From Porphyridium purpureum (lineage: Eukaryota > Rhodophyta > Bangiophyceae > Porphyridiales > Porphyridiaceae), in the NCBI GenBank assembly GCA_008690995.1, contig VRMN01000001.1, positions 4,588,001-4,652,000 on the forward strand: DNA of 64,000 nucleotides, read 5' to 3'. Of this stretch, positions 11,530-64,000 are shown piece by piece. Below the pieces are notes generated by a model. It worked only from the letters and a program-made list of their open reading frames with translations. It was not told where the DNA came from and did no database searches. Each line of letters opens with the position of its first letter. Position 1 is the first letter of the stretch. Both the position numbers and the translations under genes were made by a program.

Positions 11530-11988
11530 CGTATGTCTGCTCGTGTCCCTGTTCTCTTCGCCCACCCCTCTTCCTCACCGCCGCGCCTATTCCTTCCCTT
11601 TCTTCCGAGTTCACCGGTTGTCTTATACAGAGCACCTCCGTTGCCACACGTCGAGAACCTGTTCCACCGTCGCGTTGGACGATACGGTTTGCATAGTAAA
11701 ACAGTATCGATTTACGACAGTGACACTTTTCGAGTGTTTTGGCGATCTGAACAGCTTTGGTCGATCCCGCGTGCCGCAACCCGCGAAAACGGGCCGCTTT
11801 GCAGGACACGCGCGGATCCATCGCCAACGTGCCTGGTGGGGTGTCTGGCATTACCACCAGCGCACGGATCACAAAACGCACGCACGCGCGCAGCCCGCAA
11901 TAAACGCGTGCCCCGGCGGTGCTGTTCAGCGGCGCGCCGCATGCGCACAGCGCCAAGCCCATTCGTTGGCCATCCTTGGCGGCGGCGC

Positions 11989-20439: not shown

Positions 20440-21081
20440 CTATTCGTTCTCACGGAATCGCGTGTACCCCTTCGGAATCGCGAAACCGCGGTTGGAATCC
20501 TTGAAGCCTCCCCCCGGCAGATCTCGTGCCTCGCTAGCAGCTGTTGTCTCAGCCTCTGTGGGCTTCGGGGGAGCTGGTTCTGCCACTCCGCCCCCAAAAC
20601 AGCATGCGAACAGCCCACCGGTCGTCTTTGCAGATTCTGCTGCAGATGCCTGCGCTGCTGCTTGCTGCTTGATGTCCTTCGCTTTCCCTGTCGCATTGTC
20701 AGTCGCCGCGGCAGTCGCTGTCTTGACACTATCAGCCGCCTTCGCCGCTTCAGCCTTGGCTTCTTTTTCCTTCTCTGCGGCAAGCGCAGCCGCCTTGTCA
20801 GCTGCAGCTTTAGCTTCCTTCTCCTTCTGAGCCACTGCGGCAGAGGCCTTGTCCATTTCAGCCGCAGCCGCCTGCTCTGCCTTCTTAGTATCCACCGGGG
20901 CCGGCATTGGCGGGGGTGCTGGCGCTGACGCTGACGCTGGCGCTGGCGCTGGCGGAGGCAGAGGCGGCGCCGCGCTGCTCGCAAAGCTGGCAGCTGGCGG
21001 AGGCGGCGGTGGCGGCGGGGCCGAGGCCCCGGAACCCCCAGCCGGCGCTGGCGGCGGTGGTGGTGGCGGCGGCGGCGGCAT
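20440..21081 (-). CDS. Pro/Ala-rich low-complexity protein, unknown
   Basis: Not recognised. From the ATG of MPPPPPPPPPP, 213 residues are predicted. They comprise two polyproline tracts (about 2-11 and 22-29), an Ala/Pro linker, an Ala-Lys-Glu-rich helical stretch of about 80 residues (KEKEAKAEAAKAAD pattern), a Cys-Cys patch in GGLFACCFGGG that could be S-acylated, and an ordered-looking tail RGFAIPKGYTRFRENE. The frame is open upstream for 83 codons but without an ATG. Polyproline tracts of this kind bind profilin, SH3 or WW domains; that role is speculation. The non-repetitive C-terminus is the best argument that it is real. Confidence 0.5.
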   Translation of the reverse strand: MPPPPPPPPPPAPAGGSGASAPPPPPPPPAASFASSAAPPLPPPAPAPASASAPAPPPMPAPVDTKKAEQAAAAEMDKASAAVAQKEKEAKAAADKAAALAAEKEKEAKAEAAKAADSVKTATAAATDNATGKAKDIKQQAAAQASAAESAKTTGGLFACCFGGGVAEPAPPKPTEAETTAASEARDLPGGGFKDSNRGFAIPKGYTRFRENE

Positions 21082-25271: not shown

Positions 25272-25290
25272 GGTTATGAGCCTAGACGCG
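25272..25290 (+). other. Copia primer-binding site (initiator tRNA-Met half)
   Basis: The bases directly after the LTR, GGTTATGAGCC, are complementary to the anticodon arm of initiator tRNA-Met (GGCTCATAACC) rather than to a tRNA 3' end. Drosophila copia primes from the same half-tRNA, with a PBS that also starts GGTTATGGGCC. The same leader follows the 5' LTRs of copies 2 and 3. The first ATG of the gag-pol frame lies inside this site. Confidence 0.75.
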
Positions 25291-28200: not shown

Positions 28201-29553
28201 CGGTTCAAGTGTCGACTTGTCGCAAAAGGTTTCACTCAGAAACCTGGTTTGGACTACGACGAAGTGTTCAGCCCTGTTGTGCGACACAACACTATTCGAA
28301 CGGTCCTGGCAGTAGCAGCTGCAAGAAAGTTGAAAATTCGACTTTTCGATGTGGTGACTGCGTTTCTCAATGGAGAACTTCATGAAGAAATTTTCATGGA
28401 ACAGCCTCCTGGATTCGTACATGAAGGAGGAAAAGTCCTGAAACTGCGTAAAGCAATCTATGGATTGAAGCAGGCATCTCGAGCTTGGAATCAAGTTCTT
28501 GTGCAAGCACTTAAAGAAATCAATTTTTCCGAAAGTACGGCAGATCCTTGTCTGTTTTCTAAGGGTCCAAATGGTCCGTATATCATGATTTACGTCGATG
28601 ACTTGGTCTTCATAGGTGAAGACGAAGTTACTTCAAATGAAGTGCTTCTGCATTTGCAAGGCAAGTTTGAAGTCAGGGATCTTGGGCAAGTGGTCAAGCA
28701 AAAATTTGCCGGCTACACTCTTGATTATGATCAAAGGAATGGCATTATCAGACTTAATCAAAGCTTGTATGTCCAAACCATCCTGGAAAGGTTCGGAATG
28801 GAATCGGCGAATCCAAGGAAGCTTCCCATGGAAAAGGATACGAAGTGGTATACTGCTACTGCAGAACCATGCAAGATGCCTTACATGGAACTCGTGGGAG
28901 CACTAATGTATTTGTGCACTTGCACGCGTCCGGATATTTCCTTCGCCGTGGGAGTGCTTGCACGATCAATGGCAAATGCCAATGAATCCCATTGGAATGC
29001 GGCAAAGGGAGTGCTGCGATATCTTAAAGGAACCATAAATTATGGTCTCCAATTTAGCTCAAATGGCAACTCCGACCTAATTGGTTACGTTGATTCAGAC
29101 TATGCTAGTGATCTTCGAACGCGAAGGTCAACCACCGGATATGCTTTCACGATCAATGGATCAGTTGTCTCCTGGAAATCCAGGCTACAACCAACTGTGG
29201 CGCTGTCCACAACCGAAGCAGAGTACATGGCTCTCTCGGATGCATGTAAAGAAGCCCAGTGGTTTCAATATCTCATGGAATTCCTAGGATTCAAGTCGAA
29301 ATCGATTCCAATGTTTTGTGACAATGATGCTGCACTGAAACTGAGTGAGAACCCGATTGTGCACGAAAGGTCGAAGCACATTGACGTGAGAAAGCACTAT
29401 GCTCGCGAATGTCAGCAACGGGGAATAGTCAAGGCTATTTACATTCGCACATCAGATCAGGCAGCAGATTTCCTAACCAAAGTGGTTCCTCGAGAAATGT
29501 TTTTGAAATGCAAAACCTTATTGGGTGTTGCTTGTCTTGAAAATTCGAGATAG
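25276..29553 (+). CDS. Copia gag-pol polyprotein, copy 1
   Basis: A single 1425-residue frame. Parts in order: gag-type region (about 1-230), CCHC zinc knuckle (about 247-260), aspartic protease (active site about 382), integrase with its HHCC region and catalytic core (about 500-700), reverse transcriptase with the YVDD box (about 1106-1109), and RNase H (about 1280-1420). Gag and pol are in one frame, as in many Ty1/copia elements. A second in-frame ATG five codons downstream of the first may be the real start, because the first lies in the primer-binding site. Gag is GC-rich and pol AT-rich, with the switch near 26300-26400. Confidence 0.95.
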   Translation: MSLDAMAFTFDASKLSALANGVEKFNGENYDIWARRTKLALRVVKLWPVVAGMVVRPSSSSRATTGMTAEEWDDADLAGQFFLSGVLENRYDRLVRDKSSADGWSAVANYAHDQLSAQKFAFRMALERIVQNKNEAMAEYLDRGIGLWDKLVSIGEQVPEDHVVRYLVIGLRKEFQGSKDYLLHSAPTVSAARLQLLQLEAGKALERTLADEPPPIAMAVSQRPQQQQRDRSAGVVKTALVKENLKCGYCHKVGHETKRCFKRKNDLRDKAAGASGAADPEAVKRGIGKPNARVNVVQVKTKVTKPPAPAAKAAIEPGWMSWEAYANSVAGRGVVPKGPSLDIRMISPPATPAPINKATTSIYAICVSVVPHKHKSHKWMFDSGSDRHITWDRSILMNERPSDESLVTVANGEHVEVSLMGDVMLKTIIQDKFNDLRLENVLLIESTPINLLSTKVAARKGCVFKHDDSSSVLHFGSDGPVLAVGDGDLMIKLSAARINAITASNKFELFHRRLGHPGLAGLKNTQNCVQGIPADLKVPDEYHCVICQKAKGTRTPFKKRKLNSISAVPGEVLHTDVCGPLTPSSFDDHRYFLVVVDECSSLSVVHLLERKSEAGEMLLRTLKYLETTLGAKAKRVRSDKGGEFASLYVQRHLQDSGITWENTSAYTPELNGMAERMNRTLLEKVRSLLFDSNLPLENWSNALLTANYLRNRISNNRGKTPIEIAFRQRPDLSNLRIYGSRAFVHIPKQLRGKLETRSAIGCLVGYGNVHSVYRILLSDGTVVESRNVTFDESVVGIDVHEHEIHDSEYFSNFDKIVEELFPKDFSKSFDEKSQIASKNFETDSTRQMDDRSQEYSISNEIGETFLEKVQNNSKDLGFQKAPNGNFGNTEDDESQDSGYVANQFVGIISTVSEPRSVEEALKGDFSEQWLEALNRELESLTGKCTWELVDRPQDRIPVRCKWVFKIKYNVNGQIDRFKCRLVAKGFTQKPGLDYDEVFSPVVRHNTIRTVLAVAAARKLKIRLFDVVTAFLNGELHEEIFMEQPPGFVHEGGKVLKLRKAIYGLKQASRAWNQVLVQALKEINFSESTADPCLFSKGPNGPYIMIYVDDLVFIGEDEVTSNEVLLHLQGKFEVRDLGQVVKQKFAGYTLDYDQRNGIIRLNQSLYVQTILERFGMESANPRKLPMEKDTKWYTATAEPCKMPYMELVGALMYLCTCTRPDISFAVGVLARSMANANESHWNAAKGVLRYLKGTINYGLQFSSNGNSDLIGYVDSDYASDLRTRRSTTGYAFTINGSVVSWKSRLQPTVALSTTEAEYMALSDACKEAQWFQYLMEFLGFKSKSIPMFCDNDAALKLSENPIVHERSKHIDVRKHYARECQQRGIVKAIYIRTSDQAADFLTKVVPREMFLKCKTLLGVACLENSR

Positions 29554-30618: not shown

Positions 30619-33600
30619 ATGAGCCCAGACGCGATGGCGTTTACGTTTGATGCGTCGAAGCTGTCCGCGCTTGCGAACGGCGTGGAAAAGTTCAATGGCG
30701 AGAATTACGACATTTGGGCACGCCGCACGAAGCTCGCGTTGCGTGTGGTGAAGCTGTGGCCCGTCGTTGCGGGGATGGTCGTTCGCCCATCGTCGTCGTC
30801 GCGTGCAACTACCGGGATGACGGCAGAAGAGTGGGACGATGCGGACCTGGCGGGACAGTTCTTTCTGTCCGGGGTCTTGGAGAACAGGTACGACCGTCTC
30901 GTCCGCGATAAGTCGTCGGCGGACGGTTGGTCCGCGGTGGCGAATTATGCGCACGATCAACTGTCGGCGCAGAAGTTCGCGTTTCGCATGGCGCTGGAGC
31001 GCATTGTCCAGAACAAGAACGAGGCAATGGCCGAGTACTTGGATCGCGGAATCGGTCTGTGGGACAAGCTTGTCTCGATCGGTGAGCAAGTTCCCGAGGA
31101 CCATGTCGTGCGTTATCTGGTGATCGGGCTCCGCAAAGAGTTTCAGGGGTCGAAGGACTACCTGCTGCATTCGGCGCCCACGGTCTCCGCAGCTCGGCTG
31201 CAACTGCTCCAGCTGGAGGCCGGAAAAGCGCTCGAGCGCACGTTGGCAGATGAGCCCCCGCCCATCGCAATGGCGGTGTCCCAGCGTCCGCAGCAACAGC
31301 AGCGTGATCGCTCAGCGGGTGTCGTGAAGACGGCACTCGTCAAGGAGAACCTGAAGTGTGGCTACTGCCACAAGGTTGGGCACGAGACGAAGCGTTGCTT
31401 TAAGCGCAAGAATGACTTGCGCGACAAGGCTGCTGGTGCGAGTGGCGCAGCAGACCCGGAGGCAGTGAAACGCGGCATCGGAAAGCCGAATGCGCGGGTG
31501 AATGTGGTTCAGGTAAAAACCAAGGTGACGAAACCACCGGCTCCGGCGGCAAAGGCAGCCATTGAGCCAGGTTGGATGTCGTGGGAGGCCTACGCGAATA
31601 GCGTTGCGGGAAGGGGCGTGGTGCCAAAAGGCCCTTCTCTGGATATCCGCATGATTAGCCCCCCAGCGACCCCTGCACCAATCAATAAAGCCACCACTTC
31701 CATCTATGCCATCTGTGTCTCTGTTGTGCCCCACAAGCACAAGTCGCACAAATGGATGTTCGATTCTGGATCGGACAGACATATCACTTGGGATAGGTCT
31801 ATTCTAATGAATGAAAGACCTTCTGATGAATCACTTGTTACTGTTGCCAACGGGGAACATGTTGAAGTTTCATTGATGGGTGATGTCATGCTCAAAACAA
31901 TTATTCAAGACAAGTTTAATGACTTGCGTCTTGAAAATGTTTTGTTGATCGAAAGCACACCCATAAATCTCCTTTCGACAAAGGTCGCAGCGAGAAAGGG
32001 CTGTGTCTTCAAACACGATGATAGTTCATCTGTTTTGCATTTTGGGTCAGATGGGCCCGTCCTAGCGGTTGGGGATGGTGATTTAATGATCAAACTATCC
32101 GCCGCTAGAATAAATGCAATCACAGCTTCAAATAAGTTTGAGCTATTTCACCGTCGACTTGGTCATCCTGGACTTGCTGGTCTGAAAAATACGCAAAATT
32201 GTGTACAGGGAATTCCCGCGGACTTAAAAGTTCCGGATGAATACCATTGTGTGATTTGCCAAAAGGCAAAGGGAACACGAACTCCCTTTAAGAAGCGGAA
32301 ATTGAATTCCATTTCGGCGGTTCCGGGAGAAGTCCTTCATACTGATGTATGCGGACCACTCACTCCTTCGAGTTTTGACGACCATCGATATTTTCTAGTT
32401 GTCGTCGACGAATGCTCAAGTTTGAGTGTCGTCCACTTGCTCGAGCGAAAAAGTGAAGCGGGTGAAATGTTACTGCGCACACTTAAATATCTCGAAACGA
32501 CTCTTGGTGCAAAGGCAAAAAGAGTTCGGTCCGACAAAGGTGGCGAATTCGCAAGCCTTTATGTGCAAAGGCATCTCCAAGACTCTGGAATTACTTGGGA
32601 AAATACCTCTGCTTACACGCCAGAACTTAATGGTATGGCTGAACGCATGAATCGGACATTACTCGAAAAGGTTCGAAGCTTATTGTTTGATAGTAATCTA
32701 CCTTTGGAAAATTGGAGTAATGCTTTGTTGACTGCGAATTATTTGCGAAATCGCATTTCAAATAATCGCGGGAAAACGCCGATAGAAATTGCATTCAGGC
32801 AAAGGCCAGATCTCAGCAATCTCAGAATCTACGGATCGAGAGCGTTTGTTCATATTCCTAAGCAATTGCGAGGAAAACTAGAAACAAGATCTGCAATTGG
32901 ATGCTTGGTCGGTTATGGAAATGTCCATTCCGTTTATCGCATTCTTCTATCGGATGGCACGGTCGTTGAAAGTCGAAATGTCACTTTCGATGAGTCTGTC
33001 GTTGGAATAGATGTTCATGAACATGAAATCCACGATTCGGAATATTTTTCCAACTTCGATAAAATTGTCGAAGAGTTGTTTCCAAAAGATTTCTCGAAGT
33101 CGTTTGATGAAAAGTCTCAAATCGCGTCAAAAAATTTTGAAACAGATTCCACTCGACAAATGGATGATCGCAGTCAGGAATATTCTATTTCAAATGAAAT
33201 CGGAGAAACGTTTCTGGAAAAAGTTCAGAATAATTCGAAAGATTTAGGGTTCCAAAAAGCTCCAAATGGAAACTTTGGGAATACTGAGGATGACGAAAGT
33301 CAAGACAGTGGATATGTCGCAAATCAATTCGTTGGAATAATTTCCACCGTTTCTGAACCTCGGTCAGTCGAAGAAGCACTAAAGGGTGACTTCTCTGAGC
33401 AATGGCTGGAAGCTCTGAATAGAGAATTGGAATCTCTCACTGGCAACTGCACGTGGGAGCTCGTCGATCGTCCACAGGACCGAATTCCTGTCAGATGCAA
33501 ATGGGTTTTTAAGATCAAATATAATGTCAACGGACAAATTGATCGGTTCAAGTGTCGACTTGTCGCAAAAGGTTTCACTCAGAAACCTGGTTTGGACTAC

Positions 33601-34896
33601 GACGAAGTGTTCAGCCCTGTTGTGCGACACAACACTATTCGAACGGTCCTGGCAGTAGCAGCTGCAAGAAAGTTGAAAATTCGACTTTTCGATGTGGTGA
33701 CTGCGTTTCTCAATGGAGAACTTCATGAAGAAATTTTCATGGAACAGCCTCCTGGATTCGTACATGAAGGAGGAAAAGTCCTGAAACTGCGTAAAGCAAT
33801 CTATGGATTGAAGCAGGCATCTCGAGCTTGGAATCAAGTTCTTGTGCAAGCACTTAAAGAAATCAATTTTTCCGAAAGTACGGCAGATCCTTGTCTGTTT
33901 TCTAAGGGTCCAAATGGTCCGTATATCATGATTTACGTCGATGACTTGGTCTTCATAGGTGAAGACGAAGTTACTTCAAATGAAGTGCTTCTGCATTTGC
34001 AAGGCAAGTTTGAAGTCAGGGATCTTGGGCAAGTGGTCAAGCAAAAATTTGCCGGCTACACTCTTGATTATGATCAAAGGAATGGCATTATCAGACTTAA
34101 TCAAAGCTTGTATGTCCAAACCATCCTGGAAAGGTTCGGAATGGAATCGGCGAATCCAAGGAAGCTTCCCATGGAAAAGGATACGAAGTGGTATACTGCT
34201 ACTGCAGAACCATGCAAGATGCCTTACATGGAACTCGTGGGAGCACTAATGTATTTGTGCACTTGCACGCGTCCGGATATTTCCTTCGCCGTGGGAGTGC
34301 TTGCACGATCAATGGCAAATGCCAATGAATCCCATTGGAATGCGGCAAAGGGAGTGCTGCGATATCTTAAAGGAACCATAAATTATGGTCTCCAATTTAG
34401 CTCAAATGGCAACTCCGACCTAATTGGTTACGTTGATTCAGACTATGCTAGTGATCTTCGAACGCGAAGGTCAACCACCGGATATGCTTTCACGATCAAT
34501 GGATCAGTTGTCTCCTGGAAATCCAGGCTACAACCAACTGTGGCGCTGTCCACAACCGAAGCAGAGTACATGGCTCTCTCGGATGCATGTAAAGAAGCCC
34601 AGTGGTTTCAATATCTCATGGAATTCCTAGGATTCAAGTCGAAATCGATTCCAATGTTTTGTGACAATGATGCTGCACTGAAACTGAGTGAGAACCCGAT
34701 TGTGCACGAAAGGTCGAAGCACATTGACGTGAGAAAGCACTATGCTCGCGAATGTCAGCAACGGGGAATAGTCAAGGCTATTTACATTCGCACATCAGAT
34801 CAGGCAGCAGATTTCCTAACCAAAGTGGTTCCTCGAGAAATGTTTTTGAAATGCAAAACCTTATTGGGTGTTGCTTGTCTTGAAAATTCGAGATAG
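30619..34896 (+). CDS. Copia gag-pol polyprotein, copy 2
   Basis: A 1425-residue single frame almost identical to copy 1, with the same gag, zinc knuckle, protease, integrase, reverse transcriptase and RNase H order. Confidence 0.95.
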   Translation: MSPDAMAFTFDASKLSALANGVEKFNGENYDIWARRTKLALRVVKLWPVVAGMVVRPSSSSRATTGMTAEEWDDADLAGQFFLSGVLENRYDRLVRDKSSADGWSAVANYAHDQLSAQKFAFRMALERIVQNKNEAMAEYLDRGIGLWDKLVSIGEQVPEDHVVRYLVIGLRKEFQGSKDYLLHSAPTVSAARLQLLQLEAGKALERTLADEPPPIAMAVSQRPQQQQRDRSAGVVKTALVKENLKCGYCHKVGHETKRCFKRKNDLRDKAAGASGAADPEAVKRGIGKPNARVNVVQVKTKVTKPPAPAAKAAIEPGWMSWEAYANSVAGRGVVPKGPSLDIRMISPPATPAPINKATTSIYAICVSVVPHKHKSHKWMFDSGSDRHITWDRSILMNERPSDESLVTVANGEHVEVSLMGDVMLKTIIQDKFNDLRLENVLLIESTPINLLSTKVAARKGCVFKHDDSSSVLHFGSDGPVLAVGDGDLMIKLSAARINAITASNKFELFHRRLGHPGLAGLKNTQNCVQGIPADLKVPDEYHCVICQKAKGTRTPFKKRKLNSISAVPGEVLHTDVCGPLTPSSFDDHRYFLVVVDECSSLSVVHLLERKSEAGEMLLRTLKYLETTLGAKAKRVRSDKGGEFASLYVQRHLQDSGITWENTSAYTPELNGMAERMNRTLLEKVRSLLFDSNLPLENWSNALLTANYLRNRISNNRGKTPIEIAFRQRPDLSNLRIYGSRAFVHIPKQLRGKLETRSAIGCLVGYGNVHSVYRILLSDGTVVESRNVTFDESVVGIDVHEHEIHDSEYFSNFDKIVEELFPKDFSKSFDEKSQIASKNFETDSTRQMDDRSQEYSISNEIGETFLEKVQNNSKDLGFQKAPNGNFGNTEDDESQDSGYVANQFVGIISTVSEPRSVEEALKGDFSEQWLEALNRELESLTGNCTWELVDRPQDRIPVRCKWVFKIKYNVNGQIDRFKCRLVAKGFTQKPGLDYDEVFSPVVRHNTIRTVLAVAAARKLKIRLFDVVTAFLNGELHEEIFMEQPPGFVHEGGKVLKLRKAIYGLKQASRAWNQVLVQALKEINFSESTADPCLFSKGPNGPYIMIYVDDLVFIGEDEVTSNEVLLHLQGKFEVRDLGQVVKQKFAGYTLDYDQRNGIIRLNQSLYVQTILERFGMESANPRKLPMEKDTKWYTATAEPCKMPYMELVGALMYLCTCTRPDISFAVGVLARSMANANESHWNAAKGVLRYLKGTINYGLQFSSNGNSDLIGYVDSDYASDLRTRRSTTGYAFTINGSVVSWKSRLQPTVALSTTEAEYMALSDACKEAQWFQYLMEFLGFKSKSIPMFCDNDAALKLSENPIVHERSKHIDVRKHYARECQQRGIVKAIYIRTSDQAADFLTKVVPREMFLKCKTLLGVACLENSR

Positions 34897-36482: not shown

Positions 36483-39400
36483 ATGAGCCCAGACGCGATG
36501 GCGTTTACGTTTGATGCGTCGAAGCTGTCCGCGCTTGCGAACGGCGTGGAAAAGTTCAATGGCGAGAATTACGACATTTGGGCACGCCGCACGAAGCTCG
36601 CGTTGCGTGTGGTGAAGCTGTGGCCCGTCGTTGCGGGGATGGTCGTTCGCCCATCGTCGTCGTCGCGTGCAACTACCGGGATGACGGCAGAAGAGTGGGA
36701 CGATGCGGACCTGGCGGGACAGTTCTTTCTGTCCGGGGTCTTGGAGAACAGGTACGACCGTCTCGTCCGCGATAAGTCGTCGGCGGACGGTTGGTCCGCG
36801 GTGGCGAATTATGCGCACGATCAACTGTCGGCGCAGAAGTTCGCGTTTCGCATGGCGCTGGAGCGCATTGTCCAGAACAAGAACGAGGCAATGGCCGAGT
36901 ACTTGGATCGCGGAATCGGTCTGTGGGACAAGCTTGTCTCGATCGGTGAGCAAGTTCCCGAGGACCATGTCGTGCGTTATCTGGTGATCGGGCTCCGCAA
37001 AGAGTTTCAGGGGTCGAAGGACTACCTGCTGCATTCGGCGCCCACGGTCTCCGCAGCTCGGCTGCAACTGCTCCAGCTGGAGGCCGGAAAAGCGCTCGAG
37101 CGCACGTTGGCAGATGAGCCCCCGCCCATCGCAATGGCGGTGTCCCAGCGTCCGCAGCAACAGCAGCGTGATCGCTCAGCGGGTGTCGTGAAGACGGCAC
37201 TCGTCAAGGAGAACCTGAAGTGTGGCTACTGCCACAAGGTTGGGCACGAGACGAAGCGTTGCTTTAAGCGCAAGAATGACTTGCGCGACAAGGCTGCTGG
37301 TGCGAGTGGCGCAGCAGACCCGGAGGCAGTGAAACGCGGCATCGGAAAGCCGAATGCGCGGGTGAATGTGGTTCAGGTAAAAACCAAGGTGACGAAACCA
37401 CCGGCTCCGGCGGCAAAGGCAGCCATTGAGCCAGGTTGGATGTCGTGGGAGGCCTACGCGAATAGCGTTGCGGGAAGGGGCGTGGTGCCAAAAGGCCCTT
37501 CTCTGGATATCCGCATGATTAGCCCCCCAGCGACCCCTGCACCAATCAATAAAGCCACCACTTCCATCTATGCCATCTGTGTCTCTGTTGTGCCCCACAA
37601 GCACAAGTCGCACAAATGGATGTTCGATTCTGGATCGGACAGACATATCACTTGGGATAGGTCTATTCTAATGAATGAAAGACCTTCTGATGAATCACTT
37701 GTTACTGTTGCCAACGGGGAACATGTTGAAGTTTCATTGATGGGTGATGTCATGCTCAAAACAATTATTCAAGACAAGTTTAATGACTTGCGTCTTGAAA
37801 ATGTTTTGTTGATCGAAAGCACACCCATAAATCTCCTTTCGACAAAGGTCGCAGCGAGAAAGGGCTGTGTCTTCAAACACGATGATAGTTCATCTGTTTT
37901 GCATTTTGGGTCAGATGGGCCCGTCCTAGCGGTTGGGGATGGTGATTTAATGATCAAACTATCCGCCGCTAGAATAAATGCAATCACAGCTTCAAATAAG
38001 TTTGAGCTATTTCACCGTCGACTTGGTCATCCTGGACTTGCTGGTCTGAAAAATACGCAAAATTGTGTACAGGGAATTCCCGCGGACTTAAAAGTTCCGG
38101 ATGAATACCATTGTGTGATTTGCCAAAAGGCAAAGGGAACACGAACTCCCTTTAAGAAGCGGAAATTGAATTCCATTTCGGCGGTTCCGGGAGAAGTCCT
38201 TCATACTGATGTATGCGGACCACTCACTCCTTCGAGTTTTGACGACCATCGATATTTTCTAGTTGTCGTCGACGAATGCTCAAGTTTGAGTGTCGTCCAC
38301 TTGCTCGAGCGAAAAAGTGAAGCGGGTGAAATGTTACTGCGCACACTTAAATATCTCGAAACGACTCTTGGTGCAAAGGCAAAAAGAGTTCGGTCCGACA
38401 AAGGTGGCGAATTCGCAAGCCTTTATGTGCAAAGGCATCTCGAAGACTCTGGAATTACTTGGGAAAATACCTCTGCTTACACGCCAGAACTTAATGGTAT
38501 GGCTGAACGCATGAATCGGACATTACTCGAAAAGGTTCGAAGCTTATTGTTTGATAGTAATCTACCTTTGGAAAATTGGAGTAATGCTTTGTTGACTGCG
38601 AATTATTTGCGAAATCGCATTTCAAATAATCGCGGGAAAACGCCGATAGAAATTGCATTCAGGCAAAGGCCAGATCTCAGCAATCTCAGAATCTACGGAT
38701 CGAGAGCGTTTGTTCATATTCCTAAGCAATTGCGAGGAAAACTAGAAACAAGATCTGCAATTGGATGCTTGGTCGGTTATGGAAATGTCCATTCCGTTTA
38801 TCGCATTCTTCTATCGGATGGCACGGTCGTTGAAAGTCGAAATGTCACTTTCGATGAGTCTGTCGTTGGAATAGATGTTCATGAACATGAAATCCACGAT
38901 TCGGAATATTTTTCCAACTTCGATAAAATTGTCGAAGAGTTGTTTCCAAAAGATTTCTCGAAGTCGTTTGATGAAAAGTCTCAAATCGCGTCAAAAAATT
39001 TTGAAACAGATTCCACTCGACAAATGGATGATCGCAGTCAGGAATATTCTATTTCAAATGAAATCGGAGAAACGTTTCTGGAAAAAGTTCAGAATAATTC
39101 GAAAGATTTAGGGTTCCAAAAGGCTCCAAATGGAAACTTTGGGAATACTGAGGATGACGAAAGTCAAGACAGTGGATATGTCGCAAATCAATTCGTTGGA
39201 ATAATTTCCACCGTTTCTGAACCTCGGTCAGTCGAAGAAGCACTAAAGGGTGACTTCTCTGAGCAATGGCTGGAAGCTCTGAATAGAGAATTGGAATCTC
39301 TCACTGGCAAATGCACGTGGGAGCTCGTCGATCGTCCACAGGACCGAATTCCTGTCAGATGCAAATGGGTTTTTAAGATCAAATATAATGTCAACGGACA

Positions 39401-40760
39401 AATTGATCGGTTCAAGTGTCGACTTGTCGCAAAAGGTTTCACTCAGAAACCTGGTTTGGACTACGACGAAGTGTTCAGCCCTGTTGTGCGACACAACACT
39501 ATTCGAACGGTCCTGGCAGTAGCAGCTGCAAGAAAGTTGAAAATTCGACTTTTCGATGTGGTGACTGCGTTTCTCAATGGAGAACTTCATGAAGAAATTT
39601 TCATGGAACAGCCTCCTGGATTCGTACATGAAGGAGGAAAAGTCCTGAAACTGCGTAAAGCAATCTATGGATTGAAGCAGGCATCTCGAGCTTGGAATCA
39701 AGTTCTTGTGCAAGCACTTAAAGAAATCAATTTTTCCGAAAGTACGGCAGATCCTTGTCTGTTTTCTAAGGGTCCAAATGGTCCGTATATCATGATTTAC
39801 GTCGATGACTTGGTCTTCATAGGTGAAGACGAAGTTACTTCAAATGAAGTGCTTCTGCATTTGCAAGGCAAGTTTGAAGTCAGGGATCTTGGGCAAGTGG
39901 TCAAGCAAAAATTTGCCGGCTACACTCTTGATTATGATCAAAGGAATGGCATTATCAGACTTAATCAAAGCTTGTATGTCCAAACCATCCTGGAAAGGTT
40001 CGGAATGGAATCGGCGAATCCAAGGAAGCTTCCCATGGAAAAGGATACGAAGTGGTATACTGCTACTGCAGAACCATGCAAGATGCCTTACATGGAACTC
40101 GTGGGAGCACTAATGTATTTGTGCACTTGCACGCGTCCGGATATTTCCTTCGCCGTGGGAGTGCTTGCACGATCAATGGCAAATGCCAATGAATCCCATT
40201 GGAATGCGGCAAAGGGAGTGCTGCGATATCTTAAAGGAACCATAAATTATGGTCTCCAATTTAGCTCAAATGGCAACTCCGACCTAATTGGTTACGTTGA
40301 TTCAGACTATGCTAGTGATCTTCGAACGCGAAGGTCAACCACCGGATATGCTTTCACGATCAATGGATCAGTTGTCTCCTGGAAATCCAGGCTACAACCA
40401 ACTGTGGCGCTGTCCACAACCGAAGCAGAGTACATGGCTCTCTCGGATGCATGTAAAGAAGCCCAGTGGTTTCAATATCTCATGGAATTCCTAGGATTCA
40501 AGTCGAAATCGATTCCAATGTTTTGTGACAATGATGCTGCACTGAAACTGAGTGAGAACCCGATTGTGCACGAAAGGTCGAAGCACATTGACGTGAGAAA
40601 GCACTATGCTCGCGAATGTCAGCAACGGGGAATAGTCAAGGCTATTTACATTCGCACATCAGATCAGGCAGCAGATTTCCTAACCAAAGTGGTTCCTCGA
40701 GAAATGTTTTTGAAATGCAAAACCTTATTGGGTGTTGCTTGTCTTGAAAATTCGAGATAG
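36483..40760 (+). CDS. Copia gag-pol polyprotein, copy 3
   Basis: A 1425-residue single frame almost identical to copies 1 and 2, with the full set of domains in copia order. Confidence 0.95.
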   Translation: MSPDAMAFTFDASKLSALANGVEKFNGENYDIWARRTKLALRVVKLWPVVAGMVVRPSSSSRATTGMTAEEWDDADLAGQFFLSGVLENRYDRLVRDKSSADGWSAVANYAHDQLSAQKFAFRMALERIVQNKNEAMAEYLDRGIGLWDKLVSIGEQVPEDHVVRYLVIGLRKEFQGSKDYLLHSAPTVSAARLQLLQLEAGKALERTLADEPPPIAMAVSQRPQQQQRDRSAGVVKTALVKENLKCGYCHKVGHETKRCFKRKNDLRDKAAGASGAADPEAVKRGIGKPNARVNVVQVKTKVTKPPAPAAKAAIEPGWMSWEAYANSVAGRGVVPKGPSLDIRMISPPATPAPINKATTSIYAICVSVVPHKHKSHKWMFDSGSDRHITWDRSILMNERPSDESLVTVANGEHVEVSLMGDVMLKTIIQDKFNDLRLENVLLIESTPINLLSTKVAARKGCVFKHDDSSSVLHFGSDGPVLAVGDGDLMIKLSAARINAITASNKFELFHRRLGHPGLAGLKNTQNCVQGIPADLKVPDEYHCVICQKAKGTRTPFKKRKLNSISAVPGEVLHTDVCGPLTPSSFDDHRYFLVVVDECSSLSVVHLLERKSEAGEMLLRTLKYLETTLGAKAKRVRSDKGGEFASLYVQRHLEDSGITWENTSAYTPELNGMAERMNRTLLEKVRSLLFDSNLPLENWSNALLTANYLRNRISNNRGKTPIEIAFRQRPDLSNLRIYGSRAFVHIPKQLRGKLETRSAIGCLVGYGNVHSVYRILLSDGTVVESRNVTFDESVVGIDVHEHEIHDSEYFSNFDKIVEELFPKDFSKSFDEKSQIASKNFETDSTRQMDDRSQEYSISNEIGETFLEKVQNNSKDLGFQKAPNGNFGNTEDDESQDSGYVANQFVGIISTVSEPRSVEEALKGDFSEQWLEALNRELESLTGKCTWELVDRPQDRIPVRCKWVFKIKYNVNGQIDRFKCRLVAKGFTQKPGLDYDEVFSPVVRHNTIRTVLAVAAARKLKIRLFDVVTAFLNGELHEEIFMEQPPGFVHEGGKVLKLRKAIYGLKQASRAWNQVLVQALKEINFSESTADPCLFSKGPNGPYIMIYVDDLVFIGEDEVTSNEVLLHLQGKFEVRDLGQVVKQKFAGYTLDYDQRNGIIRLNQSLYVQTILERFGMESANPRKLPMEKDTKWYTATAEPCKMPYMELVGALMYLCTCTRPDISFAVGVLARSMANANESHWNAAKGVLRYLKGTINYGLQFSSNGNSDLIGYVDSDYASDLRTRRSTTGYAFTINGSVVSWKSRLQPTVALSTTEAEYMALSDACKEAQWFQYLMEFLGFKSKSIPMFCDNDAALKLSENPIVHERSKHIDVRKHYARECQQRGIVKAIYIRTSDQAADFLTKVVPREMFLKCKTLLGVACLENSR

Positions 40761-54594: not shown

Positions 54595-56654
54595 TCAGCC
54601 AATTAATCCGTTTCCGATCGGATCCAGGCACGTTTGAATAACCAAATCCACAAGTGCCTCCAACCTTGCTGCGGCGTGCTCCGTCTGTGACCTGTTGCAC
54701 CGAATCTCCGAATAATACTTTAACTTGGGCTCGGTTCCACTGGCGCGCAACGAAATCTCAACATTGGAGTCTCCCGGGACCAAAGAGTCTCCATTTTCCA
54801 AAGGCAGGGCGATTCGAAACGTTACAAATTGTGACGACGCATTCGATGGAAGCTTAGCCTGCCCGTCTGGTTCCATCGTGTCCGTTCCTCTCGTCAAATC
54901 GCGAACACTGATTACGCTAGCATCACCGAATGTGGATGGAAATCCTCGCTTGCGCAGCTCAGTCATGATGCGAGTGACTTGGGAAGGATCCTTACACAGC
55001 AAATAATGGTTTCGACTGATATGATAGCCGTACGAGTCGTAGAATTTCCTCAAATACGCTAGAAGCGTACTGCTTCGCTTGTCCAGCTCACCGATCAGCT
55101 CATACATTACTGCAAGCGCCGAAATACCGTCCTTATCATGCACAGCAGTCGAACACATGAATCCTATGGCTTCCTCATAGGCGAATAGCGGAACCAGGCC
55201 AGACCTTTTGCATTCAAGCACTTTTGCAGCTATCCATTTGAAGCCTGTGAGCGTTTCGATGCATTGAAAGCCCTCGACGCGAGCCATCTCAGCAAGCGCC
55301 TTAGAGCTGACTGTCGACCTCACCATGCAAAATGTGTCGTTCTCAAGACCAACCGGGCGCTTACTCCACAGCCAAGCCGCAAACAGAGCTGCCATTTCGT
55401 TGCCATTGAAAACGTACCAATTGCCGACTCCATCAGGGGTACCCACACGCTCAGCAACTGAAAACCGATCTGCATCAGGATCGTTAGCGAAGATGTACCG
55501 ACATCCATGTCTGTCTGCCGTTTGTATTGCGAGTTGCAAAGCACCCTTACCTTCTTCCGGATTCGGAAACTTAACCCTATTCCGAGAAGCGCCCACAATG
55601 GCACCCAGGAAAACGTAAGGAGGATGCAAGAAAGCCAGAAAAACAAACAAACAAACAGAAAAAAAACAACGCAACTTCAAGCGTCAGCATATGTTCTGAA
55701 ACACCAACAGCGGTCTTCCGGCAAGAAGATTGCCATCGTGTGTTGCCTCTTTCAGATACAGAAAATCATGGATACTTACGTTGGAAAGTCGGGATTCGGT
55801 TCAACCTGCTCAACAACAGGAACTAAGGCGGGAAATCCAAACGATGAGCAAAGCGTTCTTACGAAGTACTCCCCTACGCCGTGAAATGCGGTGTAAACGA
55901 CCCTTGGTGCTACCGCATTGTCTTGTTGGGGTCGAAAACGAAGTGACTCAACCATGACGCGCACATAAAGTTGCATCACTTCCTCTGTCGGCGAGCTCAC
56001 AAGAGAGTCACTCAACAGATTTTCAATCGATTTCGGGACATAGTCTCGCCACGGGTGAAGGTTTGCAGAAATCGCATCCTCAATGGCTGTATCGTGCGGA
56101 CTGTTGATCTGGCAGCCATTTTCCAAATAAAGCTTGTAGCCGTTGTCGGTGGCAGGATTATGGCTTGCAGTAATCATAATCCCGGCTACACACTCCTTTG
56201 CCAACACTGTCATTGCCAGCAGTGGTGTTGCCACGAATCTTGAATGCAGGTGCACGCGAACCCCGTCCTCCAGAAGCACGGTGCTGACAGTTGCCGCGAA
56301 TTCGGTCGAATGGTGTCTTGAGTCGTATCCGACTGCAATGCCACGCTGCTTCACTTTCTCAACACCGTAAAGATGATAGAGGAAAGAAAGGACGCCCTGC
56401 GTTGTCTGGAACACTGTGACGTGATTCATGCGATCGTAGCCGCATCCCATTTTGGCCCGCAGTCCAGCAGTGCCGAACGCGAGGCGCTGCGTGAGGCGGT
56501 TCGAGATCTCTGCCATGCGATCAGCATGGGGCGGCTTATCTGTATCTCGGAGCTCGGAGCTCCACTGGCGCGCCTCGGTCGCGGACCACTCGCCTCGGTC
56601 CAGAGCAAGAAACTGCTCCAGAAGAGTGAGCATGGTGGAAGTCGCAAGCGCCAT
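54595..56654 (-). CDS. PGM2: Phosphoglucomutase-2 / phosphopentomutase, one intron
   Basis: Interconverts hexose or pentose 1- and 5/6-phosphates. Exon 1 (56654-55780) and exon 2 (55576-54595) flank a 203-nt intron with donor AAC/GTAAGT and acceptor AATAG/GGT. Joined they encode 618 residues, close to PGM2 (612). The phosphoserine loop is ITASHNPATDNGYK, the metal loop NDPDADRFSVAER lies just after the splice, the sugar loop reads AYEEAIGFM, and the C-terminal phosphate-binding RASGTEPKLK is present. LAFGTAGLRAKMG at the start is typical of PGM2/PMM-type rather than PGM1. It supplies glucose-1-phosphate for UDP-glucose and floridean starch or salvages ribose-phosphate. The ATG is seven codons inside an open frame that begins with GTG. 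Confidence 0.93.
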
Positions 56655-57036
56655 TGAAGTGCGGCAGACTGTCACAGTCCCCTCCGTGAACGGACGATGT
56701 GGACACCGGGTGTCATCGATTCCTCGTCACGACTTCCGCGATCTCACCGGTTTTCGGAAAGTAACTGTCGCGCATGAATCTCGCACAAACCCTGGGGGAA
56801 GCTGCAGCGGTGTAAGTACCCGGACGTGGTGAATCGCGTTCAGCGTCGGTTTCGTCACGCCACTCGCGCCGCGCAGCCAAGCAGAAGAGAGGAGTCGTCA
56901 CGGTGTCAAGTCATTTACAAAAAAGGCACTTCCGAAGGATGACAGGAAACCCTGCCGTAAACGCCGCGTGTGACGCTGTATTCGCCACTGCAATGGTGGT
57001 TCCGGTTGGACTGCTCCCGGGCGTCGGCCGCAGCAT
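56655..57036. other. Intergenic region, two minus-strand genes
   Basis: About 380 bases between the PGM2 start and the formin stop. No gene, RNA or exact copy of the ACTGTAC motif was seen. Confidence 0.5.
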
Positions 57037-60000
57037 CTAGCTCGACTCTGGCACGGGGTTGAACTTTACGGTGGCGGTACGACTTGGAGCACGCGCATCC
57101 GCCTGTGCCTGTGCTGGCGGAGGAGCAGGCGGCGGAATTCTTCCACTGCACGCTCCTGCCGACGGTGGTGGCGGTGGTGGCGGCGGCGCCGGCACAGCAA
57201 CGCCGACGCTAGCGGTGCTCGTATGCATGAACGGCGCCGGCGGAGGCGGCGGTATCTGAAGACCAGGCACAAGACTCGGTCCGTTCGCTTTTGAATCCGC
57301 GTCGTTGTCAAAGTTCAGGCTACGTGGCGCGATCCGGTTCGTCACTATTCGCTGTGTGCGAACCACAGCGACGCTTTCCGGCGTAATGCGTGTCTGCGGG
57401 GTCGTGTCATCAAACCACCACTGAGCCCCAGCGTCATTAAAAATGGGCTGGCTAAGAACTTCCATGTACGCAGTCTTGCACTGCTTGACAAAGATGGCAA
57501 TGGCCCCGAATATTTCCTCCGGCCCGGTTCCGGAGCGAGAACTCGGGAGAAACATGAGCAGTAACTTCACAGCGTCCTCCAAGTCCAGCACCAAGCCACG
57601 GAGATCAACTTCCAAGGGTTCAATGGTGCGCAAAAACTCATCCATCGTTCTCTGAAATTCAGGCATTGTCTTGCCTGCTTTGCAAATGTCCTTTTCTCGG
57701 CGAACACATCCCAAGGCGGTTTCCAGTTCACGAAACTCTGCCACAGTAGCCCTGGAGTCAATTTTTGACGCCCGATGCACCGTGCCAATGCAATCGATGA
57801 AACTGAAAAGTTCAGGGCGATGAGCTCGCATCACCGCGACCGCATAATGGAGCAGTGAAGACTTGCGATCTGATGTGAGGATAAGAGCCATGGTTGGTAA
57901 GTCAAGCACAGAAAAGCCATTCGCATTCCCTTTCGACGAGCCTTCGTTGAGGTAGTTGCCTAGCGCCAGGCAAAATTCAAGAACGTGGAAAAACGGATCT
58001 GCATCAAAGATTTCTTCACATGCCTTCAGAACCGTCCGGGCTTGAATCTTCAAAAGATGGAATTCACTTTCAAACGTGTTGACCGTCCGCAGGCACTCGA
58101 CCTTGCGGCGTACACGCTCGAGTCGCGACATGTGAACGTAGAACCTTTCCGGCTCGAGCAAGTCATCATCGTTGCCCTGATACTCAAGCATCCTACCTTC
58201 ATCTTCGCTGTTCGGCAAGATTGACACGAGAATGTCGATTTCCTCGCTTGTAAAAGCATACGCGTCACCTCTGACAATGGCCCTCTCGATATACTCGAGC
58301 GAAAGATGTTTCAGCCGCTTCATGGAGATCTCAATATTGCGTGCTGTCTTTGAGTCCAAAACTTGAAGTTGTTTACCTCGGCTCAGGATCGATTCGGCCC
58401 GGGCAAAGGTAGACTTCCCAGAATTTGTTGAGAAGTGCGTGTTCAACTCATCCCAGGAAGAAATGCACCAGGCATCCTGACGAATCTGTGTCCAGACAGA
58501 TCCGCGCAAGTATCGAACAGGAATTTTTGTCCAGTGAAAGCGCTTCAAAGCAGGCATATCTCCCCGACCTTCAGTTTCTAAGTCTTTGCCTTGACCAATC
58601 ACAATACGCCGTGCGGGACGCTGCCGCTGGACTGAGCGGTTCTTGTCAGCGCTCGCAAGCTTAAAAGTATCCTCGTCGGCTGCACCTCGACCTCCTCCCA
58701 AAGTACCAGGTAAGCACTGCACCTCGTTCTCACTTACTTTGACCACTTTTTGCGTTTGTGTAGCCAAACTTGGGTTCGTGCCCTTTGGGTACTCAAACGA
58801 TGCAAAAGTGTTCAATTGCGATGATGGAATAAGGCGGTCGAGCTTCTGCGCCAACTGCTCCAGCTCTAGCCCGTCCAACTCCGCTTTTCGTTCCGGATTG
58901 CGCAGAAGCTCGCGGAATAGCCGAAGCTCTTCAGGAGATAATCCTTGCGATTCTTTCAGGTCGACATTTTCTTTTCGCATACGTGCCATCTGCTCCTCAA
59001 GATATTGGTTCTTGGTCTTGAGGGAGTCCAGCTCATCGAGTATGTCATCGAGGTCAGGTTCTGAGCGACGACTTAGTTGCGGACTGCGTCGCGTATACTC
59101 GGCATCCAGGTTCAGTGCGCGCTCGCGCGCGGCATCGTCAACCTCCCAGTCCTCTCCCCACTTTGCAAGCTTCACTTCAGTGCATTCCGACCACAACCTG
59201 TGCTTGGAGGACCCGTCAAGAGAGAAGTAATCATCCCGGTACTGCAGCACTTTGAACCGAAAGTCATGTTCAATCAGGCTCGTCCTCAGAACAAGCCGCA
59301 AGTCCCAGCAGTGGCCGGGGTTCCACTTCAGGGCCAGAGCATTTTCGGGGTTCCAGTTTCCGAGTTCATGAGGTTCCCCCAACAGGTACAGCATCTGGCC
59401 AAAAGCAAGCTTGCAATTGATCCGGTAGCGTGCTTTGAAGAATCCATCGTTCAAAACCGTTTCCCCAAGATTCGTATCTACATCTTGAATCTGAGCGCGG
59501 CGGTTGAAGCGGTTCTCCCAACGCAAAGACTTCCATTCCCCAGGTATGGCAGCAAAGTACTTATACTCAAACTCGTTCACGCGTGACGTATCAATCTCGA
59601 TACTCGTTTTCCAGAAAAACTCATTCGTTGTCTCGTCCTGAACGCAGGTGAGCGGTCTTGCCTCTGCAACCTTCCAGCTCGCGAGCTCAGGAATGCTTCC
59701 AATGACGAAAACCTGCTCAAGGTGTTGGGTCAGAAACGATACGCTGAAGCTGATTGTTATGCGCATCGAAATGTTATCGCCCTCATCCTCAGAAACGGGC
59801 GAGGCAGGACGGTTCGGTGCAAGCTCATGACCTGTAGCGTATTTGACTGATTCGCGAAGCTGTCTTTCAGCCGAAGCTGTGTACTTGTCCAGCGAGTCTC
59901 GCTGGCTCCGAGGCGAGAGGGAGAGTACGGCACTTTCCATACTGTTTCTCTTTGAAGAGCTATCCGATGTCGAGGACGTATCCGAGCCAATACAATGCTG

Positions 60001-60369
60001 CTGCCAGACAGGATCGTGCATCACGTGTGCGTTGAGATGTCGTGCAGCCCGCTTGGGCGGTGTTCGAAAGACCGGTTGCCTCAGGGTCCAGCTGGTCCAC
60101 GAGTCAGATGGCTGCCTCAAAACCGTCTCGCGGTATGGCATGAACGCCCGGGCGGGCGCAGATTTGTTCTTCTTTGTCGGTGAAACCGAAACCAAAAGGG
60201 CGCCAGGGTTGACTCCCTTTTGCGGGGTACTCTGAACACTGCTGCGGGAACTTCCCGTGAGAGAGACGCGGTCGTTACAGACGGCCTCGCAATAGGCCCC
60301 ACCAGTCGCGGTTCCACAACCTGGACACGTTGCTCCTGCGTGCAAGGCTGAGCCTTGGTCAAAAAGCAT
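57037..60369 (-). CDS. Formin with tandem CBM20 starch-binding domains
   Basis: An actin nucleator of unusual design, 1110 residues from the first ATG. A short Cys-rich patch (CPGCG...CEAVC, about 15-31) and a disordered Ser-rich region lead to CBM20 domain A (about 201-306: VFVIGSIPELASW, FEYKYF, WENRFNRR) with both site-1 tryptophans (about W232, W284). Domain B (about 312-406: AFGQMLYLLGEPHELGNWNP, KWNPGHCW) keeps W339. A coiled coil (about 439-514) precedes the FH2 domain (about 602-975): LKRFHWTKIP, ARNIEISMKRLK knob, LEFCLALGNYLNEGSSKGNANGF-type post segment (quoted in part), SSLLHYAV. Polyproline tracts lie after FH2 (about 1039-1085). The residue after GF in the post motif is Ser where many formins have Lys. 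The open frame upstream lacks ATG. Confidence 0.9.
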   Translation of the reverse strand: MLFDQGSALHAGATCPGCGTATGGAYCEAVCNDRVSLTGSSRSSVQSTPQKGVNPGALLVSVSPTKKNKSAPARAFMPYRETVLRQPSDSWTSWTLRQPVFRTPPKRAARHLNAHVMHDPVWQQHCIGSDTSSTSDSSSKRNSMESAVLSLSPRSQRDSLDKYTASAERQLRESVKYATGHELAPNRPASPVSEDEGDNISMRITISFSVSFLTQHLEQVFVIGSIPELASWKVAEARPLTCVQDETTNEFFWKTSIEIDTSRVNEFEYKYFAAIPGEWKSLRWENRFNRRAQIQDVDTNLGETVLNDGFFKARYRINCKLAFGQMLYLLGEPHELGNWNPENALALKWNPGHCWDLRLVLRTSLIEHDFRFKVLQYRDDYFSLDGSSKHRLWSECTEVKLAKWGEDWEVDDAARERALNLDAEYTRRSPQLSRRSEPDLDDILDELDSLKTKNQYLEEQMARMRKENVDLKESQGLSPEELRLFRELLRNPERKAELDGLELEQLAQKLDRLIPSSQLNTFASFEYPKGTNPSLATQTQKVVKVSENEVQCLPGTLGGGRGAADEDTFKLASADKNRSVQRQRPARRIVIGQGKDLETEGRGDMPALKRFHWTKIPVRYLRGSVWTQIRQDAWCISSWDELNTHFSTNSGKSTFARAESILSRGKQLQVLDSKTARNIEISMKRLKHLSLEYIERAIVRGDAYAFTSEEIDILVSILPNSEDEGRMLEYQGNDDDLLEPERFYVHMSRLERVRRKVECLRTVNTFESEFHLLKIQARTVLKACEEIFDADPFFHVLEFCLALGNYLNEGSSKGNANGFSVLDLPTMALILTSDRKSSLLHYAVAVMRAHRPELFSFIDCIGTVHRASKIDSRATVAEFRELETALGCVRREKDICKAGKTMPEFQRTMDEFLRTIEPLEVDLRGLVLDLEDAVKLLLMFLPSSRSGTGPEEIFGAIAIFVKQCKTAYMEVLSQPIFNDAGAQWWFDDTTPQTRITPESVAVVRTQRIVTNRIAPRSLNFDNDADSKANGPSLVPGLQIPPPPPAPFMHTSTASVGVAVPAPPPPPPPPSAGACSGRIPPPAPPPAQAQADARAPSRTATVKFNPVPESS

Positions 60370-62236: not shown

Positions 62237-64000
62237 TCACCCCATCCCTCCTCCCTCGAGTTGCGACCAGTTAAAAACGTCGGCCAGAAAACCGCGCTCT
62301 CTTAGCTTTTCAGCCACGTCAGCCAGGCGCTCCAAAGGAATATTGAATCGAAATTCCATAAGCTTTTTCTTCATCCCCTTCACCCCAATCACATTCATGC
62401 CCGGCAGCCCGTCTCTGAAGGGATTGTTCTTATGTTCCGCCACTGCTGCTTCCCATAAAGCAATTTCGCTGGGAAGCGTGTAATAATTCAAGCGACCATC
62501 GTTGCTCGGTTCATTCCCACTAAAGTTCGGAAGCAGATCTAGAGCCACCGGAACTCGCCGAGTATAACCGCTTCTCTTAGAATTTTTCCACTCCAGAATG
62601 TACGAATCTAGAAATGCTTTCAATTCGGATTCTCGATTTCGATCGGTCGACGTCATAACGCGAAGAAAGACCATTTGATTCAGCTCTACACCATCTTCAA
62701 CCTTGATCTGGGTAAACTGTGAGCTGCGATCCACCTCTCCCCAGAGAGCAAAGAGCTTTCCCTCCCCAAGGACATTTTTCATGTTCTTGTACGTCATAGG
62801 GAATAAGACTGCATCGCAAGACGATCCATCAAATCCTTCGAGACCTACTTTTGCCATCTTGGTACCCTTTTTGGTCGTAAGCTCCTTCAGAGAGGCAATT
62901 ACTGCGAAACACAAAATCTCTGCACCGCTCTGCACCAAGCGAGCGGGCCGGCTGGCTCGAAAAATTCCTCGTCGTTCAGCACTGCTATTCGCGACTAATC
63001 CATGATCTTTGTCGGTATCTTCGACGTCAGGGTTGTCCAGAGACTCTGTAGGGTCGTCCTGAGACTCTACAGGGTCTACGTCGTCAGGCACGAATTGCGC
63101 TACAACCGACCCAGATACGGATGCCAAACCGGTGGGTCGCAAGAAACGCGAGAGGGAAGCAGCACTTGGGGTCAATGTTGGGTGACCTGAAATGTAGAAG
63201 CCCACAAGGTTCCTTTCGAAACCTACTTTCTCCTCTTGGGAAAAATCCGGTCCGGAGTTCTGTGCAGACAATTTCTGGTCCAGTTCAAATAGTTCATTGT
63301 TCTTCTGCTCTTGGTAGTCTGCCACTGCTCTTTCATACGCAATCTCCTCCTCCTCTGCACTCATTGCTGGGCTCTTTTTTGACTTTCGCTTCTTTGGAGG
63401 AAGGGGCTTTTTCCGATACTTTTTGACGCATGCGAGAATGTCTGGAATTAGTTCCACCAGGACCTTCCGGTTCGGGTGAAGAGCATCAAATGCCCCACAC
63501 AGGACCATGGGTTCCAGAGACCTTTTCGAGACCCCTCGATCATCGATTCGCTGAATCAGATCAATGATCGATCTAAACGGCCCCGACGCATGCCTTTCTG
63601 CTGTTAGTACGGTTGCGGCACCGCGAACGCCCTTGATGGCATCGAGCCCAAATCGAAGGCGACCTCTACCAGGAATCAATTGTCCGTGGCTGTCGTAGTC
63701 GGTTGCGCGATACACCGGCTTGAAGCCCAGACCGCTTTCATTGATTGAAGGCGGTAGAACAGAGACTCCCAATAGATGCGCATCGTTCAAGTACCTCGGA
63801 AGCTTGTCGATCACAGTTGAGTTCGCTTCTAACAGCGCCGCTGAGAACTCAACGGGGTAATTTGCCTTCAAGTATGCAGTTTGAAATGTGATCAGCGCGT
63901 ACGCCTTTGAGTGGCTCTTGTTGAAACAGTACTCTGCAAAATTTGACATGACGTCAAAGTATTTTGTCACTTTTGCACGCGAGAATCCTTTCTTCACAGC
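62237..64000 (-). CDS. dnaE: Bacterial-type DNA polymerase III alpha (DnaE), partial
   Basis: The frame is open to the window edge, so the N-terminal part (PHP, palm) is outside. The visible 587 residues start in the fingers: EYCFNKSHSKAYALITFQTAY and LKANYPVEFSAALL are near-standard for DnaE. These are followed by the helix-hairpin-helix region (RFGLDAIKGVRGAA, VSKRSLEPMVLCGAFDAL), GFYISGHPL-like FYISGHPTL, and an OB fold (FAVIASLKELTTKKGTKMAKVGLEG...). A Lys-rich insert (about KKYRKKPLPPKKRKSKK) and an Asp/Ser-rich insert are not usual in bacterial DnaE. The flanking genes are eukaryotic, so it is nuclear. Plastid DNA replication is the likely role but is inferred; no transit peptide can be seen from here. 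Confidence 0.9.
   Translation of the reverse strand, partial: AVKKGFSRAKVTKYFDVMSNFAEYCFNKSHSKAYALITFQTAYLKANYPVEFSAALLEANSTVIDKLPRYLNDAHLLGVSVLPPSINESGLGFKPVYRATDYDSHGQLIPGRGRLRFGLDAIKGVRGAATVLTAERHASGPFRSIIDLIQRIDDRGVSKRSLEPMVLCGAFDALHPNRKVLVELIPDILACVKKYRKKPLPPKKRKSKKSPAMSAEEEEIAYERAVADYQEQKNNELFELDQKLSAQNSGPDFSQEEKVGFERNLVGFYISGHPTLTPSAASLSRFLRPTGLASVSGSVVAQFVPDDVDPVESQDDPTESLDNPDVEDTDKDHGLVANSSAERRGIFRASRPARLVQSGAEILCFAVIASLKELTTKKGTKMAKVGLEGFDGSSCDAVLFPMTYKNMKNVLGEGKLFALWGEVDRSSQFTQIKVEDGVELNQMVFLRVMTSTDRNRESELKAFLDSYILEWKNSKRSGYTRRVPVALDLLPNFSGNEPSNDGRLNYYTLPSEIALWEAAVAEHKNNPFRDGLPGMNVIGVKGMKKKLMEFRFNIPLERLADVAEKLRERGFLADVFNWSQLEGGGMG

Follow-up and report, generated by a model that had tools for sequence, protein, structure and literature searches.

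P0001, a gene of the red alga Porphyridium purpureum, encodes a formin in which two tandem starch-binding modules of the CBM20 family and a predicted coiled coil stand ahead of the FH2 domain. This is apparently a real and new domain combination within the known formin family. With a probability of roughly 0.47, the protein would be a formin of the cytosol whose CBM20 modules direct it to alpha-glucan, so that starch granules become the origin or the anchor of actin filaments. A bolder version, in which P0001 is a starch-granule-rooted actin assembly factor and cytosolic starch owes its position or partitioning to filament growth as such, is put forward tentatively. The gene lies in a window (the whole stretch of DNA that was analyzed) of 64,000 nucleotides, and its features are the following:

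57037..60369 (-), whole frame of P0001, 1110 aa if translation begins at its first ATG, the true start being unsure
59770..60369 (-), residues 1-200, rich in serine and without a Pfam match at E up to 1
59485..59760 (-), CBM20-A, residues 204-295, with W232, K270, W284, and N289 kept
59176..59457 (-), CBM20-B, about residues 305-398 (Pfam match 320-377), with W339 and K373 kept
58951..59055 (-), predicted coiled coil, residues 439-473, with asparagines N454 and N468 at two core positions
57481..58554 (-), FH2 domain, residues 606-963, Pfam PF02181
57877..57879 (-), codon for L831, which aligns with a lysine of both mDia1 and DAAM1
57094..57252 (-), FH1-like tract rich in proline and situated behind FH2, about residues 1040-1092

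A Pfam search with the whole translated protein returns FH2 at 1e-62 and CBM_20 at 9.5e-22, the latter in two stretches, and so bears out both domain assignments of the initial annotation; judged from these profile matches, the family membership of the two parts leaves no room for doubt. Like the serine-rich N-terminus, the C-terminal 147 residues have no Pfam match at E up to 1.

The initial annotation had also stated that no formin with CBM20 was known. This fits a 2008 survey of the domains that accompany FH2, whose main tables do not list CBM20 among the partners found at least twice (PMC2386819), and it fits the literature search as well. In a set of 5.39 million open-access papers, to which the 2021 review of red-algal cytoskeletons (Goodson 2021) and the Porphyra and Porphyridium genome papers do not belong, a whole-word search found no text in which formin and CBM20 occur together, and a stricter search of the same set for formin and FH2 combined with starch-binding domain or carbohydrate-binding module was likewise empty. 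A database annotation of the gene may already exist. No relative of P0001 was confirmed in viral contigs (3 stretches matched the pattern, 0 of them a relative) or in prokaryotic genome contigs (90 matched, again 0), which says little, because the collections were viral and prokaryotic and a query with a single protein does not extend beyond close relatives.

Domains of the protein and what they may do

The FH2 domain covers positions 9-370 of the 372 in its Pfam profile, with 212.9 bits against a cut-off of 34.8. Its match among PDB sequences (phmmer) to DAAM1 has an E value of 1.7e-29, and mDia1, FMNL3, INF2, Cdc12, and Bni1 are matched too; identity amounts to 80 of 297 aligned residues with mDia1 and 87 of 290 with DAAM1. 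Relative to these two templates, P0001 retains W613, W626, I681, and the GN-Y-x-N motif, which we take to be the lasso and knob residues of the domain. Residue 831 is a leucine where both templates carry a lysine. Its column and that of I681 are 149 residues apart in mDia1, and likewise in DAAM1, and presumably correspond to K994 and I845 of mDia1, whose numbering gives the same spacing. Replacing I845 or K994 in mDia1, or I1431 or K1601 in Bni1, abolishes or weakens actin assembly. A look through PMC6056239, PMC11773026, PMC8533766, and PMC5969902 for the numbers of these two residues turned up neither. Because L831 replaces the lysine of the templates, actin nucleation by the FH2 domain of P0001 is likely but not assured.

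A polyproline FH1 region ahead of FH2, which is usual but not required in formins, is absent from P0001. Runs of at least four prolines occur only at residues 1040-1044 (five) and 1062-1069 (eight), both behind FH2. Such a displaced tract is odd among formins but may have a red-algal precedent, and it is, weakly and indirectly, in line with a red-algal source. Elsewhere in the window, 20440-21330 (-) encodes a possible profilin partner, a protein of 296 aa that contains long runs of proline and has no Pfam match at E up to 0.001. The domains that accompany FH2 in other formins were also searched for in P0001: neither GBD/FH3 nor DAD has a Pfam match at E up to 1, the DAD model being stringent according to the survey tables and accompanying text (PMC2386819), and the same is true of PTEN-like and RhoGAP domains. 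The absence of a PTEN-like domain is less sure, because the 2008 survey, as far as its main text goes, detected this domain by BLAST only (PMC2386819). A RhoGAP domain (2.7e-10) is found in another protein of the window, encoded at 118-1218 (-).

These features of FH2 bear on a passive role for P0001, in which the domain would not nucleate but only cap, bundle, or side-bind filaments, linking granules to actin that already exists. The leucine at 831 and the missing polyproline run ahead of FH2 are what such a tether would lead one to find, but the remainder of the domain is intact, as both its score and the retention of I681, W613, W626, and GN-Y-x-N indicate, and a purely passive tether is considered unlikely.

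The two CBM20 modules are recognized separately. Scanned alone against Pfam PF00686 (cut-off 23.3), CBM20-A gives 7.9e-15 and 54.9 bits, and CBM20-B gives 6.6e-8 and 32.7 bits. The best matches of this part of the protein among PDB sequences are glucoamylase starch-binding domains, that of Aspergillus niger being matched by CBM20-A at 1.3e-4 when the whole protein is searched and at 2e-5 with the pair alone. A CBM20-like match is also made to the human phosphodiesterase 2z0b (E 0.0038, PDB sequences), which is not a starch enzyme.

Aligned to the A. niger domain, CBM20-A retains all four site-1 residues compared. The earlier statement that this module keeps both site-1 tryptophans thus holds for W232 and W284, and K270 and N289 can be added to them; together, the four presumably make up the site-1 set. 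The tyrosine of the TYGEN stretch in A. niger, which we take to be a site-2 residue, is replaced by histidine in CBM20-A. CBM20-B keeps W339 and K373, and its second tryptophan is either lost or represented by W393 past a longer loop, which makes the module, on its sequence, appear partly degenerate. For orientation, the corresponding Trp, Lys, and Trp of site 1 in laforin are given as W32, K87, and W99 (PMC8703398, in the portion available). The predicted models, one of the CBM20 pair from a single sequence (pLDDT 39.0) and one of B aligned with A (pLDDT 35.8), scored too low for use.

Instead of anchoring the protein on granules, the CBM20 modules could be protein-binding or regulatory, or act as a glucan sensor, either binding a partner or keeping FH2 inactive until a soluble glucan binds. 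Their N-terminal place is the one from which GBD/FH3 controls other formins (PMC2386819, main tables), part of site 1 is lost in B, and the match to 2z0b takes a CBM20-like stretch into a human phosphodiesterase. Against this, the compared site-1 residues are complete in A, and GBD/FH3 and DAD, as noted above, have no match at E up to 1; regulatory modules of this kind are rather improbable.

Between the CBM20 pair and FH2, a regular 3-4 heptad pattern spans residues 439-473, with isoleucine, leucine, and methionine in its core. Its coiled-coil score, a home-made one, was reached by 0 of 500 shuffles of residues 431-520, and no named coiled-coil family exceeds its own Pfam cut-off in P0001. 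Asparagines in the core of coiled coils, such as N454 and N468 here, favor parallel dimers, and a parallel dimer of the predicted coiled coil would fit the FH2 dimer.

CBM20 together with a coiled coil is, in addition, the make-up of proteins with a proposed function in starch initiation (PMC13167743, as excerpted). By this token, the N-terminal half of P0001 might start or shape granules, as has been considered for SAGA1, SAGA2, and PTST2, and the FH2 half might only fix the location at which this happens. Those three proteins act inside plastids and are not described with FH2, and such a scaffold is highly improbable for P0001.

The reading frame and its neighborhood

According to the initial annotation, one frame joins two CBM20 modules, a coiled coil, and FH2, and this is supported by the separate profile matches and by a coding signal that continues throughout the linker. 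The frame at 57037-60369 (-) has 1110 codons plus a stop and is uninterrupted, as had been described; its start at 60369 is the part that does not stand as firmly. Upstream of the first ATG the frame is still open as far as 60687, and the whole open stretch of 1216 codons compares with a maximum of 494 in 300 simulated order-1 Markov sequences of 5 kb each.

The coding signal comes from a codon model for which 11 stretches from other genes of the window, all in frame and free of internal stops, served as the training set, and which was applied in blocks of 40 codons to the P0001 frame and the other two frames. From residue 161 to 1040, the P0001 frame scores highest of the three in 21 of 22 blocks, among them all five of the linker between CBM20 and FH2 (residues 401-600), with a modest signal of 0.01 to 0.30 bits per codon. 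In the lone exception, block 361-400, a rival frame scores higher, yet it contains five stops. The picture differs at the ends. Residues 1-160 give no clear coding signal, the P0001 frame being on top in merely one of four blocks, and upstream of the first ATG it is on top in two of five. For this reason, the gene may actually start downstream of 60369, where further in-frame methionines occur at residues 77, 117, and 144. At the other end, the own frame leads in one of the final two, proline-rich blocks.

P0001 is a prediction from genomic DNA, and the weakest alternative, that two genes have been read as one or that the assembly is in error, has in its favor that M605 directly precedes FH2, that introns occur locally, as in the neighboring phosphoglucomutase gene, and that the linker holds a donor-like GTRAGT site (58737), but it is barely credible given the codon-model result for residues 161-1040 and for the linker, the absence of both AATAAA and ATTAAA from the minus strand between 56700 and 60900, and the position of both TGTAA sites (60279 and 56919) outside the linker. 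The single GTRAGT is itself unremarkable, because by our estimate chance alone would give about two in 4.2 kb at equal base frequencies. Both the two-gene and the intron readings are thus disfavored on sequence grounds.

The phosphoglucomutase gene (54595-56675, minus strand) adjoins the formin gene on the same strand and has one intron, which starts with GTAAGT. This neighbor from the starch pathway is probably beside the formin by chance. In general, the genes of the window are dense and their introns few, and GC content ranges from 0.50 to 0.61 in 2-kb blocks outside the region from 22 to 44 kb, features that are in keeping with Porphyridium. Three consecutive Ty1/copia polyproteins of 1425 aa each are encoded on the plus strand at 25276-29553, 30619-34896, and 36483-40760; the second differs from the first in 3 bases and the third in 2, and they are very recent copies or a local amplification. 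An open reading frame that ends at the window edge (62237-63997, minus strand; Pfam HHH_6, 4.9e-21) lies beside a PDCD2-like gene, reads to us like a bacterial-type DNA polymerase III alpha subunit, and was possibly transferred or is possibly organelle-targeted. For a 626-aa protein encoded at 9685-11565 (-), neither Pfam nor the PDB sequences gave a match at E up to 0.001. Further genes of the window include the eukaryotic ones eRF1-like, capping enzyme, TRAPPC10, Rad9, importin, and PDCD2.

A proposed starch-bound formin in the cytosol

That actin and starch share a compartment in red algae, as the initial annotation had assumed, agrees with the available text of PMC10473226, according to which algal polysaccharide is formed in the cytosol in all lineages but the green algae and the cryptophytes, red algae forming starch. 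In one red alga, the starch grains are described as cytoplasmic (PMC8523428, as excerpted). Formins are present in red algae, while Arp2, Arp3, and WASP/SCAR/WAVE are generally missing (PMC10562585, in the part available), and for C. merolae, formins and profilin are listed and myosin is given as absent (PMC7503314, likewise in part).

From the protein sequence we infer glucan binding, dimerization, barbed-end activity, profilin binding, granule localization, and a cellular role, which in the preferred reading of a glucan-targeted formin would combine as follows. The two CBM20 modules would occupy the place of the N-terminal targeting or control domain of other formins, and CBM20-A, perhaps with B, would hold the protein on alpha-glucan. 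Dimerization through both the coiled coil and FH2 would bring up to four glucan-binding modules to each actin-bound dimer. FH2 would start or hold the barbed ends of actin filaments at the granule surface, and the C-terminal polyproline tract could recruit profilin-actin. Starch granules would in this way come to carry rooted actin filaments, by which the granules may be placed, moved, or shared out. In favor of this proposal are the separate matches of A and B, the conserved site-1 residues of A, the near full length of FH2 with its retained lasso and knob residues, the starch binding of the tandem CBM20s in SAGA2, the presence of other N-terminal modules in other formin classes, and the red-algal setting, in which formins occur, Arp2/3 and WASP/SCAR/WAVE are generally missing, and starch is cytosolic; counting against it are L831, the lack of polyproline before FH2, the partly degenerate CBM20-B, and the match to 2z0b.

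As far as we are aware, the placement of cytosolic starch granules and their transfer to daughter cells are unexplained, and if this reading is true, P0001 would be the first protein known to us that ties storage starch directly to the actin skeleton. A starch-binding formin would make granule placement and inheritance directly testable through one gene, and it would show glucan to be a possible anchor for formins, as membranes are for plant formins.

Comparison with known systems

The N-terminal modules of other formin classes are transmembrane, PTEN-like, RhoGAP, or GBD/FH3 (PMC2386819, main tables). Plant class I and class II formins resemble P0001 in that the N-terminal module accompanying their FH2 is not GBD/FH3, as set out in the same tables (PMC2386819). 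Their module, in contrast, is transmembrane or PTEN-like, whereas that of P0001 is a tandem of CBM20s, and the polyproline tract of P0001 lies on the opposite side of FH2. The description of red-algal formins, in the excerpt available, does not mention CBM20, of which P0001 has two.

On the starch side, there is a likeness to SAGA1 and SAGA2 from Chlamydomonas, which also contain CBM20, two copies in the case of SAGA2, and for which a similarity to PTST2, a CBM protein with a coiled coil, has been described; the CBM20 modules of SAGA1 and SAGA2 bind starch and maltoheptaose (PMC13167743, in the part available). SAGA1 and SAGA2 differ in that they bind Rubisco and position starch at the pyrenoid, and FH2 is not mentioned in that part of their description. 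The SEX4 glucan phosphatases of red algae have one to three CBM20 modules, some of them without binding residues (PMC8703398, in part), a situation comparable to that of CBM20-B; these proteins are phosphatases and not cytoskeletal.

On the actin side, CHUP1 from land plants offers a parallel in layout. Its N-terminal part targets an organelle surface, it has two leucine zippers, and a profilin-binding proline motif lies in its C-terminal part, as the polyproline tract does in P0001 (PMC3867660, as excerpted). Its target is the chloroplast envelope and not, as proposed for P0001, starch. CHUP1 shows that profilin can be bound by a proline motif in the C-terminal part of an actin factor that sits on an organelle (PMC3867660).
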